NCBI GenBank assembly: GCA_902196205.1
Contig: CABIKM010000012.1
Span: forward strand, 1 to 64,000
DNA length: 64,000 bases
Reading direction: 5' to 3'
Source of the DNA: Candidatus Methylomirabilis lanthanidiphila
GTDB taxonomy: Bacteria; Methylomirabilota; Methylomirabilia; Methylomirabilales; Methylomirabilaceae
The notes beneath the pieces are model-generated. The model was not told the DNA's origin, did not search any database, and saw nothing but the letters and a program-made list of their open reading frames with translations. Made by a program: the position numbers and the translations under genes. Below, piece after piece: positions 4,321 to 54,950 of this stretch; within the stretch, counting starts at the first letter, position 1, and each line of letters starts with the position of its first letter.

Positions 4321-4740
4321 ATGCTGGCGCCAAAGCGAGTAAAATTTCGGAAGCAACACCGGGGCAGGCGATCGGGGATCGCCGTGGCCGGATCGGCCTT
4401 GGCCTTCGGGGAGTACGGTCTGAAGGCGTTGGAAGCGGCATGGATTACCAATCGGCAGATCGAGGCGGCTCGGCGAGCCATGACGCGCCATATCAAGAGG
4501 GGCGGCAAGGTGTGGATTCGCATCTTCCCGGATAAGCCGATCACGAAGAAGCCCGCTGAAACCCGGATGGGTAAAGGAAAGGGTGCGCCGGAAGGGTGGG
4601 TGGCGGTCGTCAAACCTGGGCGCGTTCTCTGTGAGATGGAAGGAGTGACGGAGACAATCGCCAAGGAGGCGATGCGTCTCGCTGCGCATAAATTGCCCAT
4701 TGCTACGCGGTTTGTATCCCGTACTATGGCGATGAGCTGA
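4321..4740 (+). CDS. rplP: Large ribosomal subunit protein L16
   Basis: L16, 139 aa, start [16 protein letters not shown], eight bases after rpsC. The motif [21 protein letters not shown] is diagnostic. L16 positions A-site tRNA near the peptidyl-transferase centre and completes late 50S assembly. Confidence 0.98.
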
Positions 4741-4748
4741 GGGCAACC

Positions 4749-4970
4749 ATGGATGCGAAGGCGTTCCGCGAATTGGGTACTGTAGAGGTGGAGCAGAAGC
4801 TTCACGACATGAGAGATGAACTCTTTAAGCTGCGGCTGAGGGCTTCGGTCGCGCAACTTGAGAACCCGGCCCGTATCCGGCAACTTCGTCGACAGATCGC
4901 CGTTGGAGAGACGGTGCGGAGAGAGTCCTTGCGTACACAGACATCATCAAAGGTGGAATCTGCGCCATGA
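4749..4970 (+). CDS. rpmC: Large ribosomal subunit protein L29
   Basis: L29, 73 aa, an all-helical coiled protein beside the tunnel exit. Characteristic [22 protein letters not shown] followed by [10 protein letters not shown]. The stop overlaps the rpsQ start (ATGA), which suggests translational coupling. Confidence 0.95.
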
Positions 4971-5236
4971 CCGAACCGAAGAAGCGAACGCGTCGAAAGG
5001 CCTTGGTTGGGGTTGTGGTGAGCAACAAGATGCAAAAAACCGTCGTCGTGATGGTGGAGCGTCTCGTGCGGCATGAGGCATACAGCAAAATGGTCCGTTG
5101 CCGAACGAAGGTGAAAGCTCACGATGAGGACAATCGATGCGGTATGGGGGATAGGGTCGCCATCGAAGAGGCTCGACCTATGAGCAAAGAGAAGCATTGG
5201 CGGGTAACTGAAATCCTGGAGAAAGCGGCCGTTTAG
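4967..5236 (+). CDS. rpsQ: Small ribosomal subunit protein S17
   Basis: S17, 89 aa. [22 protein letters not shown] and [20 protein letters not shown] are the family motifs. A primary 16S rRNA-binding protein with an OB fold. Its start overlaps rpmC by four bases, and an imperfect-hairpin spacer separates it from rplN. Confidence 0.97.
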
Positions 5237-5239
5237 AAA

Positions 5240-5342
5240 ACAGGGTATAGGGTATGGCGTATAGGGTCAAGTGCGAGCCAGCGAAAGCGGCCATCTGATA
5301 CCCTGTCTCCTTCACCCTAAACCCCAAACCCGAGACCCTGAG
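5240..5342. repeat. Imperfect hairpin spacer repeat (GGTATAGGG family)
   Basis: The rpsQ-rplN spacer holds tandem phrases of the type cagggtatagggtatgg on its left side. On its right are reverse-oriented phrases (ataccctg, caccctaaacccc, gagaccctga), with a short unique centre. The two halves can fold into a long imperfect stem. Sister copies lie at 18935-19018, 30748-30835 and 40275-40357. Confidence 0.7.
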
Positions 5343-47079: not shown

Positions 47080-47352
47080 TCACGCCACCTCAAGCAAGGC
47101 CTTGGGATTCTTATCGGCGATCATGAGTAGCGTTCGAGCTGCGCCGGATGGCGCACGGCGTCCCTGTTCCCATTCCTGAAGCGTTCGGACCGAAACCCCC
47201 AACAATTGCGCGAATCGAGACTGCGAAAGGCCCGTTTTTTCCCGGATGGAGCCGACCGATGGTACGGTGATCACGCGACCATACTCACCACGTTTGATTT
47301 CGCGGATGCCTCCCAGAATCTCCAAGCCAATATTACGTTCGGATTTAGCCAT
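47080..47352 (-). CDS. HigA-type antitoxin, XRE helix-turn-helix
   Basis: 90 aa. The HTH lies at ~41-70 (EKTGLSQSRFAQLLGVSVRTLQEWEQGRRAP), the XRE pattern of HigA-2/NadS antitoxins. Its start overlaps the toxin gene end by eight bases. In this group the toxin gene comes first and the antitoxin represses the operon through its own DNA-binding domain. Confidence 0.88.
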   Translation of the reverse strand: MAKSERNIGLEILGGIREIKRGEYGRVITVPSVGSIREKTGLSQSRFAQLLGVSVRTLQEWEQGRRAPSGAARTLLMIADKNPKALLEVA

Positions 47353-47659
47353 CGTCGATCTCCTTCTTGATCTGTTTCAAAATATGTGACGGGATGTTCT
47401 CAGAGACATTCTTGGCATAAAGGGTCAACATCCAAATGACGCCCTCGCTGACTTTGGCGTAGTAAACGATCCGAATTCCACCTCGCTTTCCGCGCCCAGC
47501 CAAACCCCAACGCAGTTTTCGTATCCCTCCAGAACCTGGAATAATAGCACCTGCTTCGGGGTTCCTAATCAGGGTCGTTTGTAAGTCCGCGTATTCGTCG
47601 TCAGAAAGATACTCGGAAACGAGGCGCGTGAATAACTTTGTTTCGATGAAACTATACAT
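47345..47659 (-). CDS. HigB/RelE-type toxin
   Basis: 104 aa RelE-superfamily protein: FTRLVSEYLSDDEYADLQTTLIRNP, IIPGSGGIRKLRWGLAGRGKRGGIRIVYY, then WMLTLYAKNVSENIPSHIL. This is the HigB-2 (DUF1044-type) pattern. Members cleave mRNA on the ribosome. First gene of the operon with the antitoxin. The promoter is immediately upstream, its -10 only six bases from ATG 47659. Confidence 0.88.
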   Translation of the reverse strand: MYSFIETKLFTRLVSEYLSDDEYADLQTTLIRNPEAGAIIPGSGGIRKLRWGLAGRGKRGGIRIVYYAKVSEGVIWMLTLYAKNVSENIPSHILKQIKKEIDDG

Positions 47660-49116: not shown

Positions 49117-49907
49117 ACGGTCCGGCGTTCACCGAGTCGGAGTTCATGATCTGCCAGTGCGCCCGGCTGATCCGGGACGGCACCCTAGTCTTTATCGGCT
49201 ATGGGATGCCGCAGATCGCCGCGATCCTTGCCCAGCGCCTGCACGCCCCCCGGATGGTCCAGGTCTACGAATTCGGCGCAGTCGGGGCGCTCCCTGAGAC
49301 GCCGTTCGTCCGTTTTACGATGGGCGGGCCCCGCAACTGCTATCGGTCGCTGGCCTGGACGAACATGAACACCATCTTCGCGCAGGCCCAGCTCGGGATG
49401 ATCGATATGGGCGTCCTCGGCGCCACCCAGATCGACCGGTTCGGCAACCTCAACTCGACGATGACCGGGCGCGACTACCACCGCCCCGAGAAGCGATTTC
49501 CCGGAAGCGGAGGGGCCAACGAGGTGCTGTCCCAGTGCTGGCAGACGGTGATCATTGTCAAGCACGAGCGCCGCCGTTTCGTGGAGAAGGTGGATTTCGT
49601 GACCTCACCCGGATTTCTTGACGGCACGCCCGGAGCGCGCGAGCGGGCCGGCCTGCCGAAAGATACCGGACCCTGGCGGGTGGCCACCTCCAAGGCCCTC
49701 TACGGATTTGACGACCAGACCAGGCAGATGATCCTGCTGAGTGTCCTGCGCGGCCTGAGCGTGGATGACGCCCTGAAAGAGATGGAGTTTACTCCCCTCA
49801 TCGCGTCACAACTTGAGGAGCTCGCACCCCCGACGGATGAGGAGCTTCGCATCCTTCGGGAGGAGATCGACCCCGATCGCGCGATCATCGGTACCGCCGG
49901 GGAGTGA
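49113..49907 (+). CDS. CoA-transferase family I, subunit B
   Basis: 264 aa, GTG start overlapping the subunit A stop, with AAGGAGGG upstream. VQVYEFGAVGALPETP near residue 50 holds the glutamate that forms the glutamyl-CoA thioester in this family. GVLGATQIDRFGNLNST and GSGGANEV follow. The last 44 bases recur in diverged form at 54907-54950, on the far side of the lanthipeptide-like cluster. Confidence 0.88.
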   Translation: MNGPAFTESEFMICQCARLIRDGTLVFIGYGMPQIAAILAQRLHAPRMVQVYEFGAVGALPETPFVRFTMGGPRNCYRSLAWTNMNTIFAQAQLGMIDMGVLGATQIDRFGNLNSTMTGRDYHRPEKRFPGSGGANEVLSQCWQTVIIVKHERRRFVEKVDFVTSPGFLDGTPGARERAGLPKDTGPWRVATSKALYGFDDQTRQMILLSVLRGLSVDDALKEMEFTPLIASQLEELAPPTDEELRILREEIDPDRAIIGTAGE

Positions 49908-50086: not shown

Positions 50087-50191
50087 ATGACCACGACAGC
50101 CACGGTGGTGTCCCCAATGCCATCGAACGCGCCTATCGTGCCTGCGAACAAGGTAGCGCACGAGGCGCTTTTTTTATTCCGCGTCGCCTGA
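50087..50191 (+). CDS. Short ORF (34 aa) at the head of the RiPP cluster
   Basis: MTTTATVVSPMPSNAPIVPA... ending LFLFRVA, with GGAGG at 50077-50081 giving good spacing. It is the first ORF after the promoter. Its stop overlaps the start of the degenerate precursor (TGATG). No family is recognised. It may be a leader peptide, a small precursor, or the N-terminal remnant of an older precursor gene. No cysteine is present. Confidence 0.4.
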   Translation: MTTTATVVSPMPSNAPIVPANKVAHEALFLFRVA

Positions 50192-50420
50192 TGAGGCAGG
50201 TGCAGCAGGGGTGTTCGGGAAGATGCTGCGCAAAGATCCGCATATCGTCAGGGTTCCAACAGCGACTGGCCAACATCGAGAAGCGGGAAAAGGTAGTGAA
50301 GGAAAGCCTCACGCCTGTATCACTTGAGGAAACGGAGATCTGGAGAAAAAGCTCTCTGAGGCGCTCAACGAGCTGCGGAAGTGCAAGGCAAAGCTTGCCA
50401 AGAAATCAAAAGGAATAGCA
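50191..50420 (+). pseudogene. Frameshifted remnant of a second RiPP precursor
   Basis: Starts MRQVQQGCSGRCCAKI, then RLANIEKREKVVKESLTPVSLEETE, clearly related to the tail of the intact precursor (AVEEQEKLAHESLRPASLAEAE, residues 150-171). Near 50338 one base is missing. Shifting frame restores LEKKLSEALNELRKCKAKL, matching LEKKLIEALDEIKTIKAGL in the intact gene. The cysteine-rich part is reduced to three Cys. Most likely a decayed paralogue. Confidence 0.75.
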
Positions 50421-50481
50421 CCAAACACCGTCGCAGCCTCCACTTGGGCTGGGCTGCACACATCCGGGAAAGGAGCTCGAT

Positions 50482-51078
50482 ATGTTCAAGATCAAAGACT
50501 TGATGATCAAGATCATTCCCGAGGAAGGCAAGATGGCTGCGGAGCAGCCAGTGGGCTGCGGAGATTTTATGACGTGCGGTGGCTGCACCAACTGCACGGG
50601 GGATTGCACGGCTTGCACCAATACCCGCCAGTGCCTCGGCGGGTGCTCAGACCTCTACACATGCAAGGGGGGTTCGCGAGCGATGGCCGGATGCGGACTC
50701 ACGTGCGCGCCAAACACATGCCGGGTGTGCACGGTCGTTTGTACGGATGAGTGCAGTGCATGCTCACAACAGGTTCTCACCTGCAAGTGCACCGATAGTC
50801 CCACCTGCCGAGTCGGCACTTGCGGCTACGGCAGTTGCCAGAGGACTTACGGCGTTGCGGAGGCTCAGCAGCAGCTTACCTTGGAAAACCTTGCTGTGCT
50901 CAAGGCTCAGTTACGCCAGCAACTGGCGGCGGTTGAAGAGCAGGAAAAGCTGGCGCACGAAAGCCTCAGGCCGGCGTCTCTCGCAGAGGCGGAAGCACTG
51001 GAAAAGAAACTCATTGAAGCACTCGACGAAATCAAAACCATCAAGGCCGGCCTGAAGAAGAAGGAGAAGAAAGCATGA
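50482..51078 (+). CDS. Cysteine-rich RiPP (lanthipeptide-like) precursor with C-terminal helical tail
   Basis: 198 aa, ATG 50482 with AAAGGAG six bases upstream. A short N-terminal part (1-25) is followed by a core-like region (26-122) with 21 Cys and about 22 Ser/Thr. These are spaced two to nine residues apart (CGGCTNCTGDCTACT at 32-46, for example). Residues ~125-198 are a charged amphipathic helix ending in a Lys-rich stretch. The balanced Cys and Ser/Thr and the synthetase-like genes downstream suggest lanthionine or thioether formation. The core-before-tail order is unusual, because leaders are normally N-terminal. A metal-binding Cys-rich protein is the main alternative. Confidence 0.65.
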   Translation: MFKIKDLMIKIIPEEGKMAAEQPVGCGDFMTCGGCTNCTGDCTACTNTRQCLGGCSDLYTCKGGSRAMAGCGLTCAPNTCRVCTVVCTDECSACSQQVLTCKCTDSPTCRVGTCGYGSCQRTYGVAEAQQQLTLENLAVLKAQLRQQLAAVEEQEKLAHESLRPASLAEAEALEKKLIEALDEIKTIKAGLKKKEKKA

Positions 51079-51182: not shown

Positions 51183-52373
51183 ATGGCGAAGGAGAACCTG
51201 AAAACCATTCTTGAGTGTGAGTTTCGCTCGAATCCGGCATACGAAATCGTTGAGATCGAGCGGATGAACGCGGCGGAGAAATCCGCACTGCACCAACTGC
51301 GCGACGATCACGATGCCTTCGGCATTCTTCGTCCGCGTGAGAACTCCTCTCTCAGCATCAAGGCGATCTGCAAGGACACTGCTCTGCTCTTTTTCAGCCT
51401 TCAATCGGCAGGGCGGTTGCCTGCCTATCTGCTGCGTTCGCTCGACGAGCGAGGAAACCAGCACATCGCTGAACTGGTGCTCGACGGCATCTTGCAAATC
51501 TCGCGCGACGACCGGTTCGTTTCCGGCTTGGACGCACGCGATCTGATCTACAATCAGGTCGCGGTACCGGAAAATCTCAGCCGTATCGCCCGCCTTTCCA
51601 CCGAAGCGCTGAAATTCGCCCAACGCCTTCCGATCGATGACCCGATGCGCTTGTCCGCGCAGTTGTATTTTTTCAACCGAGTGCCGGTAACGCCGCGTTT
51701 GCAGAGGCGGCTGGGCGGGGAGGCGGCTTATCTTGAGTTTCTCGGAATTCACGACCAGGGTGCGTGCGGGAAGCTCCTAAAAAAACACTGGAAAAAATCG
51801 GTCGATTCACCCGAAATGCTGGGCTGGCAGTCGTGGGGTCTGAGAAAGTCCAGAGGAATGCGGCAGCGCCAAACCTACGATTATAAAATCTACGTAAGCC
51901 CGGCGCTGGATGCGGTACCCGAGATGCTGCCGCAGGTGGTGGCGGTATTCACCCAGATGGAGATCAAAAGGTTCAAGTTTGGTGCAGATCTCGCCGGCTT
52001 GGCGCGGCCCGACAAGATCGTGGCGTATCTTGAAAGCTATGAACAGGTGGAGGCCGTGGGTCGCGCCTTGGGTGAGCAGCTTGGCGATGTGCCCGTTCAC
52101 GGGGTGCCATTCACCGCAGACCTTTGCGGGGACGGTTTAATTTCCTGGGGCATGGATCCGCACGAGAGACGTGTTTTCGACTGGCAAGAAACCGCAAGCT
52201 GGCGTCTCTGGATTACCAATCATCTTGCTAGGGGGCTGCTCACCGCCCGGAGCTCGGCGCAATCTGACATTGAACCGTGGCAGTTCGCCCTCGAGCGCCT
52301 TCGCTTCGAGGGAATTGACACTGATACGTGGACGCCGATGGCGGCCTACGAGCACAAGATCAGCCAAGGTTAG
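51183..52373 (+). CDS. HopA1-like protein, candidate phospho-Ser/Thr lyase
   Basis: 396 aa from ATG 51183; a TTG four codons earlier is possible. The C-terminal half has the HopA1-type pattern: YDYKIYVSP (232-240), KFGADLAGLARPDKIVAYL (265-283), GVPFTADLCGDGLISWGMDP (307-326) and WRLWITNHLARGL (340-352). HopA1-like proteins act as lyases with separate kinases in class V lanthipeptide and thioamitide pathways. The N-terminal ~200 residues are helical and unassigned. Next to a kinase-cyclase lacking a lyase domain, it probably supplies that step (inference). Confidence 0.55.
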   Translation: MAKENLKTILECEFRSNPAYEIVEIERMNAAEKSALHQLRDDHDAFGILRPRENSSLSIKAICKDTALLFFSLQSAGRLPAYLLRSLDERGNQHIAELVLDGILQISRDDRFVSGLDARDLIYNQVAVPENLSRIARLSTEALKFAQRLPIDDPMRLSAQLYFFNRVPVTPRLQRRLGGEAAYLEFLGIHDQGACGKLLKKHWKKSVDSPEMLGWQSWGLRKSRGMRQRQTYDYKIYVSPALDAVPEMLPQVVAVFTQMEIKRFKFGADLAGLARPDKIVAYLESYEQVEAVGRALGEQLGDVPVHGVPFTADLCGDGLISWGMDPHERRVFDWQETASWRLWITNHLARGLLTARSSAQSDIEPWQFALERLRFEGIDTDTWTPMAAYEHKISQG

Positions 52374-52387
52374 AAAAGTCTCAGGCT

Positions 52388-54829
52388 ATGAAGATAACCG
52401 GCGTATTTCTTCTTCCCAAGGACGTCCAACTGGTCCAGGTCAATACGTTGCCAGAGGACAAGCGACGCCAGTTTGAGGCGGAAGACGGCGATTTTGTCAT
52501 GACGCGGCTTCGAGCCAGGAGCCCGTCAAAGGTAATCGATGCGGACATGGCGAAGCTCGTGCAACGCTTCAAGGAAGGGAAAACGATCGTGGCCGCGGTA
52601 CTGGAGTTTTGCAAAGACTGCGGTCATGACCCGGAGACGACACTGCAAGCAGCCTATCCGATTCTGGAGGAACTCATCCAGGCGAACTTTCTCGCCGCAG
52701 ACGGGTCGGAAGAGGCAGCGCCCGTGGAGGCGGGTTTGAAGCAAGGAGACGACTGGTCGGGGCTAAAAGTGATTCGGACCGTCCAGGTGCTCGAAGATTC
52801 CGAAATCTACCAAGCCAGCACGAAGGATGGCGAACTGGTTGTGCTGAAACTAGCGAGATCGGGAACGGCGGTGCAGCGCCTCACCCGGATGATTTCGCGC
52901 GAAGCGAAAATCTTGGAACACCTGAGCGGAGTTGTTTCGCCACGCGTTCGTGCCCACGGGGAATTCGAGGGTCGGCCCTATCTCGCAGCGCAGTGGTGCG
53001 AAGGTGTCCATGGCGCGCGTGCGGCGGGCCGCCTGCGCTCCATGCACGGTAGGGAAGGCCGCCGAAGGCTCCTTGATCTTTGCTGTGCCATCGCCGATGC
53101 CTACGCGTTCCTTCATGAGCAGAACGTGATTCACGGCGACGTACATCCGGGTAATCTCATTATCGGCGATGACGGCAAGGTCACTATCATCGACTTCGGC
53201 TTCGCGCGGCTGACCGCCGATGAGGGGTCGAGTCTGTCTCGCTCGCAGCGCGGCGGCTTGGGCTTCTTTTTTGAGCCAGAGTTTGCCACAGCGAGTCTGG
53301 GCAAGATGCAGAAATCCCCGCAGTCCAGCTATTTGGGAGAGCAGCACATTGTTGCGCACATGCTCTACCAGCTAATGACCGGCCACGGCTATGCCGAGTT
53401 CTCCGTCCAACGGGAAGAAAGCATGCGCCAACTGGCGGAATCCAATCCCGAACCGTTCGCACGGTGGGGTCTGGACCCGTGGCCGGACGTAGAAGCGATC
53501 CTCCGCCGGGCGCTGGCCCGGAATCCAGCGGACCGCTACGAGTCTGTGAAGGATTTGGCGAAGGCGTTGCGTTCCGCCGCGATTCCAGAGCCAGTACGTC
53601 GCGAGCCGCCGGCGCCGCCAGCGGCCACTTCACCGCTTTCCGACAGGCTCCTGTTAGATTATCTCCGCCGGTTTGATCCGGCGGGAGCGTTGTTCGCGTC
53701 CGGCTTGCCGGAGCCGCCGTATTCCTCCGTCAACTACGGCAGCGCAGGAGTGGCTTATTTTCTCTATCGGATTGCGTGCATCCGAAATGATGCATTGCTG
53801 CTTTCGTGGTCAAAGCTTTGGATTGAGAAGGCCATCAGCGAGGCTGCGTCCAAGGGCGAGCCCGCGTTCACCAACCCGGGAGGCGAAATCACGCGCGACA
53901 TCATTGGGCCAGTTGCGCTTTATCACACAGAGACTGGGCTCTACGCCGTGAAAGCTCTGATAGGACACGCCATGGGCGACATTCCATCGGAATTGGACGG
54001 CTTGGGCGGTTTCGTCAGGGAGGCACAAAAACCCTGCGACAACATTGACCTCACTCTGGGAAGCTCAGGGGTCTTACTGGGTTGCGCTTTGATGGCCGAG
54101 GCGATGCCAAATCACGCTCCGATACGCAGACTTGGCGATGTGCTGCTCAAAGAGATTTGGACTCGAATCGAATCCATGCCGGCCATCGAGGAGGAAAAAC
54201 AGTTTCGATTCACCGGTATCGCCCACGGATGGTCGGGCGTCCTTTACGCAGTCCTGATGTGGTGTCGAGCAACACAAGTCAAGCTGCCCGCGACATTGCC
54301 GGATCGGCTGGATCAGTTGGCAAATTTGGCGGAGCCGGCCGGCGCGGGAGTTCATTGGGAAAGGAAAGTGCGGTCTGCGCGCCATCGTGATCCATCTGAC
54401 GTTTCACCAAGTTGGTGTAATGGAACGGGCGGCATGATCCACTTGTGGACGCTTGCCCACCAAATGCTTCGCGACCAGCGGTTCTTGGAACTGGCGGAAG
54501 GCTCGGCATGGAATGTGATCGAGGCCTCAGACAGTGTTGATCAGATTTGCTGCGGTCGTCCGGGGCAGACCTACGGAGTGATCAATCTTTTCAAGCATAC
54601 CGGTGAAAGCCGATGGCTCGGCCATGCCAAAGCGATGGCGGAAAAGTGCTTGCGCTTGACGACTCCACCGCATGGAACTCAAGTCCCGTCGTTTTACTAT
54701 GGCCTCTACAAAGGGCCGGTAGGTTCAGCGCTGCTCTCCGCGGACATTGAAACTCCGTCGGAGGCTTACATGCCGATGTTCGAATCGGAAGGCTGGGCGA
54801 ACGGCTTTGGGATGAAGATGCCCGCATGA
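52388..54829 (+). CDS. PqqD-like/kinase/LanC-like fusion, lanthipeptide-synthetase-type
   Basis: 813 aa from ATG 52388. Residues ~25-105 resemble a PqqD-type RiPP recognition element (SPSKVIDADMAKLVQRFKEG ... DPETTLQAAYPILEELIQANFL). Residues ~125-400 are a protein-kinase domain: K154, E172, HGDVHPGN (249-256) and DFG (269-271). Residues ~415-813 are a LanC-like cyclase: H613 in AHGWSG, C677 in SWCNGTGG, and C721-C722-G723 where most LanC proteins have CHG. No OspF-like lyase domain is present, unlike class III/IV synthetases; the HopA1-like neighbour may fill that role. Confidence 0.75.
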   Translation: MKITGVFLLPKDVQLVQVNTLPEDKRRQFEAEDGDFVMTRLRARSPSKVIDADMAKLVQRFKEGKTIVAAVLEFCKDCGHDPETTLQAAYPILEELIQANFLAADGSEEAAPVEAGLKQGDDWSGLKVIRTVQVLEDSEIYQASTKDGELVVLKLARSGTAVQRLTRMISREAKILEHLSGVVSPRVRAHGEFEGRPYLAAQWCEGVHGARAAGRLRSMHGREGRRRLLDLCCAIADAYAFLHEQNVIHGDVHPGNLIIGDDGKVTIIDFGFARLTADEGSSLSRSQRGGLGFFFEPEFATASLGKMQKSPQSSYLGEQHIVAHMLYQLMTGHGYAEFSVQREESMRQLAESNPEPFARWGLDPWPDVEAILRRALARNPADRYESVKDLAKALRSAAIPEPVRREPPAPPAATSPLSDRLLLDYLRRFDPAGALFASGLPEPPYSSVNYGSAGVAYFLYRIACIRNDALLLSWSKLWIEKAISEAASKGEPAFTNPGGEITRDIIGPVALYHTETGLYAVKALIGHAMGDIPSELDGLGGFVREAQKPCDNIDLTLGSSGVLLGCALMAEAMPNHAPIRRLGDVLLKEIWTRIESMPAIEEEKQFRFTGIAHGWSGVLYAVLMWCRATQVKLPATLPDRLDQLANLAEPAGAGVHWERKVRSARHRDPSDVSPSWCNGTGGMIHLWTLAHQMLRDQRFLELAEGSAWNVIEASDSVDQICCGRPGQTYGVINLFKHTGESRWLGHAKAMAEKCLRLTTPPHGTQVPSFYYGLYKGPVGSALLSADIETPSEAYMPMFESEGWANGFGMKMPA

Positions 54830-54906: not shown

Positions 54907-54950
54907 AGATCGACCCCGATCGCACGATCATCGGCGCTGCCGGGGATTAA
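54907..54950 (+). pseudogene. Duplicate fragment of the CoA-transferase B 3' end
   Basis: Forty-four bases, reading IDPDRTIIGAAGD then stop, match the end of the subunit B gene at 49864-49907 (IDPDRAIIGTAGE) with six mismatches. No longer part of that gene is present. The stop overlaps the end of convergent msrQ. It marks the right edge of the RiPP island. Confidence 0.8.

Follow-up and report, generated by a model that had tools for sequence, protein, structure and literature searches.

A candidate lanthipeptide precursor with a hypervariable cysteine-rich core between a conserved N-terminal motif and a conserved helical tail

The window analysed here, a 64,000-nucleotide stretch of contig CABIKM010000012.1 from Candidatus Methylomirabilis lanthanidiphila, contains an open reading frame that raises two questions: what kind of protein it encodes, and by which end that protein would be recognized if it were the substrate of modifying enzymes. 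The ORF (50482..51078, + strand) begins with an ATG codon, six bases downstream of a ribosome-binding site, AAGGAG (50470..50475, +), and encodes a protein of 198 amino acids. An earlier note on this DNA described a Cys- and Ser/Thr-rich region followed by a long helical tail, and our counts bear this out: residues 26-122 (50557..50847, +) contain 21 Cys and 22 Ser/Thr (16 Thr, 6 Ser), and residues 123-198 form a charged, helix-like tail. No family model in Pfam or NCBIfam matches the protein. It is nonetheless not a chance ORF, because unrelated phyla have homologous ORFs in the same position beside the same two enzyme genes.

The first of these genes in the window encodes a putative LanY/HopA1-like phospho-Ser/Thr lyase (51183..52373, +; longest ORF from TTG 51171), and the second a synthetase of 813 amino acids (52388..54829, +; longest ORF from GTG 52328), in which an RRE-like domain precedes a Ser/Thr kinase and a LanC domain. 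None of the other 94 genomes searched from the window's phylum contained a homologue of the lyase. A tblastn search with the lyase matched a Paenibacillus peoriae plasmid and a Cupriavidus oxalaticus plasmid, and on both the lyase adjoins a kinase-LanC protein, with a candidate precursor just upstream. An alignment of three lyases then retrieved 22 further loci in bacterial species genomes and one in a Nitrososphaerales MAG. The lyase lay next to a kinase-type synthetase in every locus from this search, and a candidate precursor was directly upstream in nearly all of them; precursors were sought and not found at L018 and L023. Within the Acidobacteriota, 6 of 396 sampled genomes carried the lyase and yielded more precursors. 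Among these, the L058 precursor (1256-2047) has 25 Cys and internal core repeats of CTDCTTQQFSICGTSP, and the L053 precursor (4713-5240) has 18 Cys and internal core GGCYAS repeats.

In all, homologous precursor-lyase-kinase/LanC cassettes were found at about 30 loci, spread over eight or more bacterial phyla and a single archaeal assembly, the three genes being linked in Paenibacillus, Cupriavidus, Acidobacteriota, Gemmatimonadota, Eremiobacterota, Bacteroidota, Elusimicrobia, other Proteobacteria and the Nitrososphaerales MAG. Since the archaeal locus comes from a MAG, it is possible that it represents contamination. A genome-contig search with the synthetase alone as the query gave no match, nor did a search of viral sequences with the lyase. 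Among 19 flanking genes, no conserved transporter, protease or immunity partner was found near the cassettes, which speaks against a bacteriocin cassette of the classical kind. Single occurrences were an OPT-type transporter near L015 and an M64 peptidase near L012.

Comparison of the precursors separated conserved ends from a divergent middle. Pairwise z-scores against shuffled sequences were 4.7-7.4 for the leader, -1.5 to 2.1 for the core and 2.4-13.6 for the tail. Alignment scores of the cores were hardly above what composition permits, and the middle of these proteins is hypervariable. Similarly, pN/pS was higher in the core than in the tail in three of four close pairs, a comparison of small numbers. 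Precursor lengths in the family range from 73 to 263 amino acids. The tails consist of one or two helices, two in the window (residues 132-191; 50875..51054, +), and are homologous across phyla. The comparison of tail and core that the earlier note had called for came out as it anticipated, and its reading of the ORF as a RiPP precursor agrees with the hypervariable middle and the widely shared tail.

The tail could also be traced in the immediate vicinity. A profile built from four tails ranked the precursors and a neighbouring remnant in the window (50191..50418, +) above everything else in all the loci. The note had stated that this remnant conserves the tail, and the profile detects it with E=2e-4 among the locus ORFs and E=0.0066 genome-wide. 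The remnant derives from a second precursor that has lost its core; helix 1 of the tail is in frame and helix 2 runs on in a different frame (LEKKLSEALNELRKCKAKL). A whole-genome search with the tail profile recovered the precursor and the remnant and no other copies. Scattered extra precursors, as with ProcM, were considered and rejected, as the window's genome holds no further tail copies.

Within the family, conservation is widest at the other end, in the strand-like N-terminal 8-10 residues. The earlier note remarked that only 25 residues precede the core and overlooked a motif there. So short a stretch need not lack a leader, as the first 14 residues (MFKIKDLMIKIIPE; 50482..50523, +) are strongly conserved. 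Its consensus, F-x-[IV]-[KR]-[DE]-L-M-[IV] (FKIKDLMI in the window), matched 20 of 24 precursors but none of the 3664 other ORFs at these loci; the search pattern was built from the same precursors and is somewhat broader than the consensus, so that the first count is partly a matter of construction and the second is the informative figure. Degenerate-looking forms of the motif occur in Cupriavidus (FRAKRVRIQI) and Paenibacillus (FRTVDLAANV). Thus, the suggestion that the tail is a recognition element gains from its conservation, whereas the further suggestion that it replaces an N-terminal leader is not supported by the distribution of the motif. Homologues that conserve the N-terminus and vary the tail, which the note had named as evidence against its proposal, were not what we observed: the N-terminus is conserved, and so is the tail. 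The tail is short or hardly recognizable in L008, L009, L011, L016, L017 and L019 and is therefore not required everywhere. The leader motif is kept in the short-tail precursors L008, L016, L017 and L019, which points to two elements, leader plus tail.

If the leader is recognized, the tail might have a different task. The protein could be a lanthipeptide precursor of which the N-terminal motif alone is recognized, the tail being a structural, solubility, oligomerization or transport element of a big Cys-rich chain. The wider conservation of the motif and the several precursors with only a short tail are consistent with this explanation, and because no exporter is clustered with the genes, the tail could signal to an unlinked one. 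The polyproteins of the family argue otherwise. The Paenibacillus ORF, with four tail copies by profile, contains three near-identical units that each comprise motif, core and helix, with a helix also at the start of the ORF. The Nitrososphaerales ORF, with two tail copies, consists of two diverged units that both keep motif and tail around unrelated cores. The tail thus follows each core and not just the C-terminus, a position easier to reconcile with an effect in cis on the individual cores than with a signal for export at the end of the chain. We consider recognition of the motif alone unlikely, though deserving of serious weight. The position of the tail behind each core in the polyproteins is best explained if it serves that core, in cis, as a second element, and the leader motif is the best candidate ligand of the RRE-like domain. 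The conservation of the tail would equally follow from a role as a coiled coil, in solubility or in export.

The enzymes bear on what would happen to the core. The lyase of the window has no Pfam or NCBIfam family match, and searches of PDB sequences with profiles of the lyase and of the RRE-like domain returned no meaningful match. Among its relatives, the lyase of L026 matches HopA1 (PF17914) at 8e-4, below the cut-off, and another matches RamC_N weakly (0.028). Alignment by hhalign with HopA1-LanC proteins of the same soil genomes gave E=0.001 and a probability of 21%, with the catalytic residues in register. Residues K232, K262, R272 and Y279 (numbered from nt 51192) are invariant in 23 lyases, the last three forming a K-10-R-7-Y pattern. 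The corresponding set in CaoY, a proven class V lyase, is R187, K219, R229 and Y236 (PMC9486802), and the K-R-Y spacing is identical to that of K219/R229/Y236. At the first of these positions, the lyase has Lys, as do SpvC and LanKC, whereas CaoY has Arg187. At L027, L028 and L029, in genomes that also carry a window-type cassette, an APH kinase adjoins HopA1-LanC fusions with CHG cyclases; this layout is another class V-like arrangement.

In the synthetase, the kinase domain (52799..53389, +) has the motifs HGDVHPGN and DFG and belongs best to PF00069 (E=1.1e-12), the match to APH being weaker. The LanC cyclase domain (53732..54781, +; PF05147, E=1.9e-26) is intact in the window, with WCNG...CCG and AHGW. 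The N-terminal domain (52388..52711, +) is assigned as RRE-like, or PqqD-like, by weak profile matches. Comparison with PqqD by hhalign gave E=1e-5 and a probability of 82% in one direction, and E=0.0018 and 15% in the reverse; PF05402 matched 2 of 21 members, with a best E of 0.13. The PqqD-like domain that the earlier note placed in this neighbour is suggested by these matches, and the same protein carries the kinase and LanC domains. The Cupriavidus cluster also has a close copy of the N-terminal domain fused to a 2OG-Fe(II) oxygenase, the pattern expected of a substrate-binding domain common to two enzymes. The region beside that cassette on the Cupriavidus oxalaticus plasmid (L004, 7333-14060) encodes a full LanB dehydratase, a cupin-like protein and the PqqD-like domain-oxygenase fusion, which suggests a two-dehydratase, hydroxylated product.

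The zinc ligands of LanC, one Cys and a Cys-Cys pair (in WCNG and CCG), are present in every complete LanC copy. At four loci (L020, L021, L024 and L025; Nitrosomonas twice, Sphingomonas and Neoroseomonas), the triad is lost, and the precursors have one Cys; at the 17 triad-bearing loci, the precursors have 2-21 Cys. Because the four triad-less loci belong to a single clade, a Fisher value for this association does not reflect independent events, and the joint loss of cyclase triad and core cysteines may be a single event. Their precursors keep leader and tail and have a long conserved middle, and these loci possibly carry out dehydration without ring formation.

This pattern bears on two other explanations of the window precursor. 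The products could be mainly dehydrated chains, non-cyclized or disulfide-bonded, with LanC acting on few residues; the triad-less loci retain kinase, lyase and precursor, so that some members of the family can serve for dehydration alone. We judge this to be quite improbable for the window, where an intact LanC is paired with a Cys-rich partner. It is more improbable still that the precursor is an unmodified, metallothionein-like protein that binds metal through its cysteines, with the synthetase acting on some other substrate. The share of Cys in the core (21%) would suit such a protein. The usual metallothionein spacings are CC and CxC, and these are depleted in both cores counted (0 and 1 in the window, 0 and 0 in L007, with about 4 expected), a result on which we rejected the proposal. 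Moreover, Ser/Thr accompany the cysteines in matching number and a Thr often comes after a Cys, adjacent CT pairs being enriched in both of the Cys-richest cores studied. Low-Cys and single-Cys relatives share the same ends and enzymes, the Cys count tracks the cyclase triad, and the linkage extends across phyla.

The lanthipeptide features are present: a variable core with Ser/Thr and Cys, a kinase and a phospho-lyase with catalytic residues, and a LanC zinc triad. We consider it probable that the window ORF encodes the precursor of a multi-ring lanthipeptide (a thioether-bridged RiPP), with leader and tail as recognition elements and kinase, lyase and LanC as its enzymes. In the proposed pathway, the RRE-like domain of the synthetase would bind the N-terminal KIKDLMI strand as the leader. 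The helical tail would be a follower, a further element for recognition or positioning in cis, and would dock the opposite end of that core. Ser/Thr residues of the core would then be phosphorylated by the kinase domain and turned into dehydro residues as the separate LanY-type lyase eliminates the phosphate. At the three-cysteine zinc site of the LanC domain, Cys thiols would be added to form Lan/MeLan rings. We infer the binding roles of leader and tail, as well as actual modification, ring number, export and function, from these features; the figure of up to about 20 thioether rings given by the earlier note would be a ceiling derived from residue counting.

The cassette resembles several known systems. 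Class V (cacaoidin CaoK/CaoY; lexapeptide, pristinin) pairs a separate LanY lyase with a kinase, as the putative LanY/HopA1-like lyase here, which has the same K-R-Y spacing, would do, and class Vb (SmoA with LanC SmoC) also employs a LanC cyclase. In contrast to class V, which has a stand-alone APH-type LanK (PF01636), the kinase here is of the PF00069 type and is fused to LanC and the RRE-like domain. The LanC triad is Cys-Cys-Cys, the precursors bear a C-terminal helical tail, and the hosts lie far outside the actinobacteria. Class III and IV enzymes (LanKC, LanL) also place the kinase before LanC in one chain and use phospho-Ser/Thr lyase chemistry, but they combine lyase, kinase and cyclase in one polypeptide, whereas the lyase here is a separate gene in every locus. 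The triads differ (CCC here, CCH in class IV and none in class III), and the synthetase scores far under the NCBIfam cut-offs for LanL (128.7 of 650) and LanKC (83.5 of 575). ProcM-type class II enzymes (CCG cyclases) share the Cys-Cys-Cys zinc triad only; dehydration would here be carried out by kinase and LanY lyase and not by a LanM domain. The synthetase has no LanM Pfam domain, and the LanM model matched at the cyclase end alone (683-923). Two reports link the CCC triad to tolerance for many substrates (PMC12328550; PMC11251773). Class II-V enzymes have been reported without an identifiable RRE (PMC10604976), in contrast to the weakly matched RRE-like domain of this synthetase.

Follower-peptide RiPPs such as bottromycin have a conserved sequence C-terminal to the core; in this family, unlike those, an N-terminal leader is also kept. 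The literature searched yielded no lanthipeptide with a natural follower, and in the same literature, subscription papers aside, we found no report of the layout, the leader motif or the tail. A LanC survey described previously undescribed dehydratase/triad combinations (PMC11251773), so that unusual pairings of this kind are not new in themselves. That survey relied on the LanL model for the lyase, and the peptides it names are from cyanobacteria and Vibrio; its available text does not mention the leader motif, the tail or the RRE-like domain. We found no description of the combination of lyase and kinase-LanC protein with leader/tail precursors, in a family that appears from its sequences to be related to known lanthipeptide systems. 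Tentatively, and with clearly less assurance than for the window ORF, we suggest that it may be a separate, unnamed lanthipeptide class of many phyla and possibly archaea, defined by an RRE-kinase-LanC(CCC) protein and a stand-alone LanY lyase. Its cores, with up to 25 Cys, would be held by leader and follower, and a side branch without cyclization would make dehydrated proteins.

For kinase-type lanthipeptide synthetases, the way in which substrates are held is still an unsettled matter (PMC10604976), on which the RRE-like domain and the second element that this natural family seems to have would bear. Deletions in the precursor could directly distinguish recognition of the leader from that of the follower. 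If both elements are used, cores as long as about 100 residues with 20 or more Cys could be processed over their whole length, an advantage for the engineering of multi-ring proteins. Profiles of leader and tail provide a search handle as well, as current family models see the family through its kinase and LanC domains only.

The cassette lies in a segment of approximately 5 kb between a CoA-transferase gene and an MsrQ gene, bounded by 40-bp direct repeats that derive from the end of the CoA-transferase gene. The left copy (49864..49903, +), at the 3' end of that gene, is identical at 36 of 40 positions to the right copy (54907..54946, +). In congener G010, the two flanking genes are directly adjacent, with one repeat copy and no insert; in congener G004, the same place holds a different cargo of toxin-antitoxin-like ORFs with related repeats. 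These differences indicate that the cassette was acquired at a recurrently used site. No integrase ORF was noticed inside the 5-kb segment. Just upstream of the CoA-transferase gene, the window also encodes a RelE-like toxin and an Xre/MqsA-like antitoxin (47080-47659). In Mucilaginibacter, a luciferase-like monooxygenase gene (L026, 12146-13060) begins 36 bases past the synthetase; by analogy with class V clusters, its product could be a reductase of dehydro residues.
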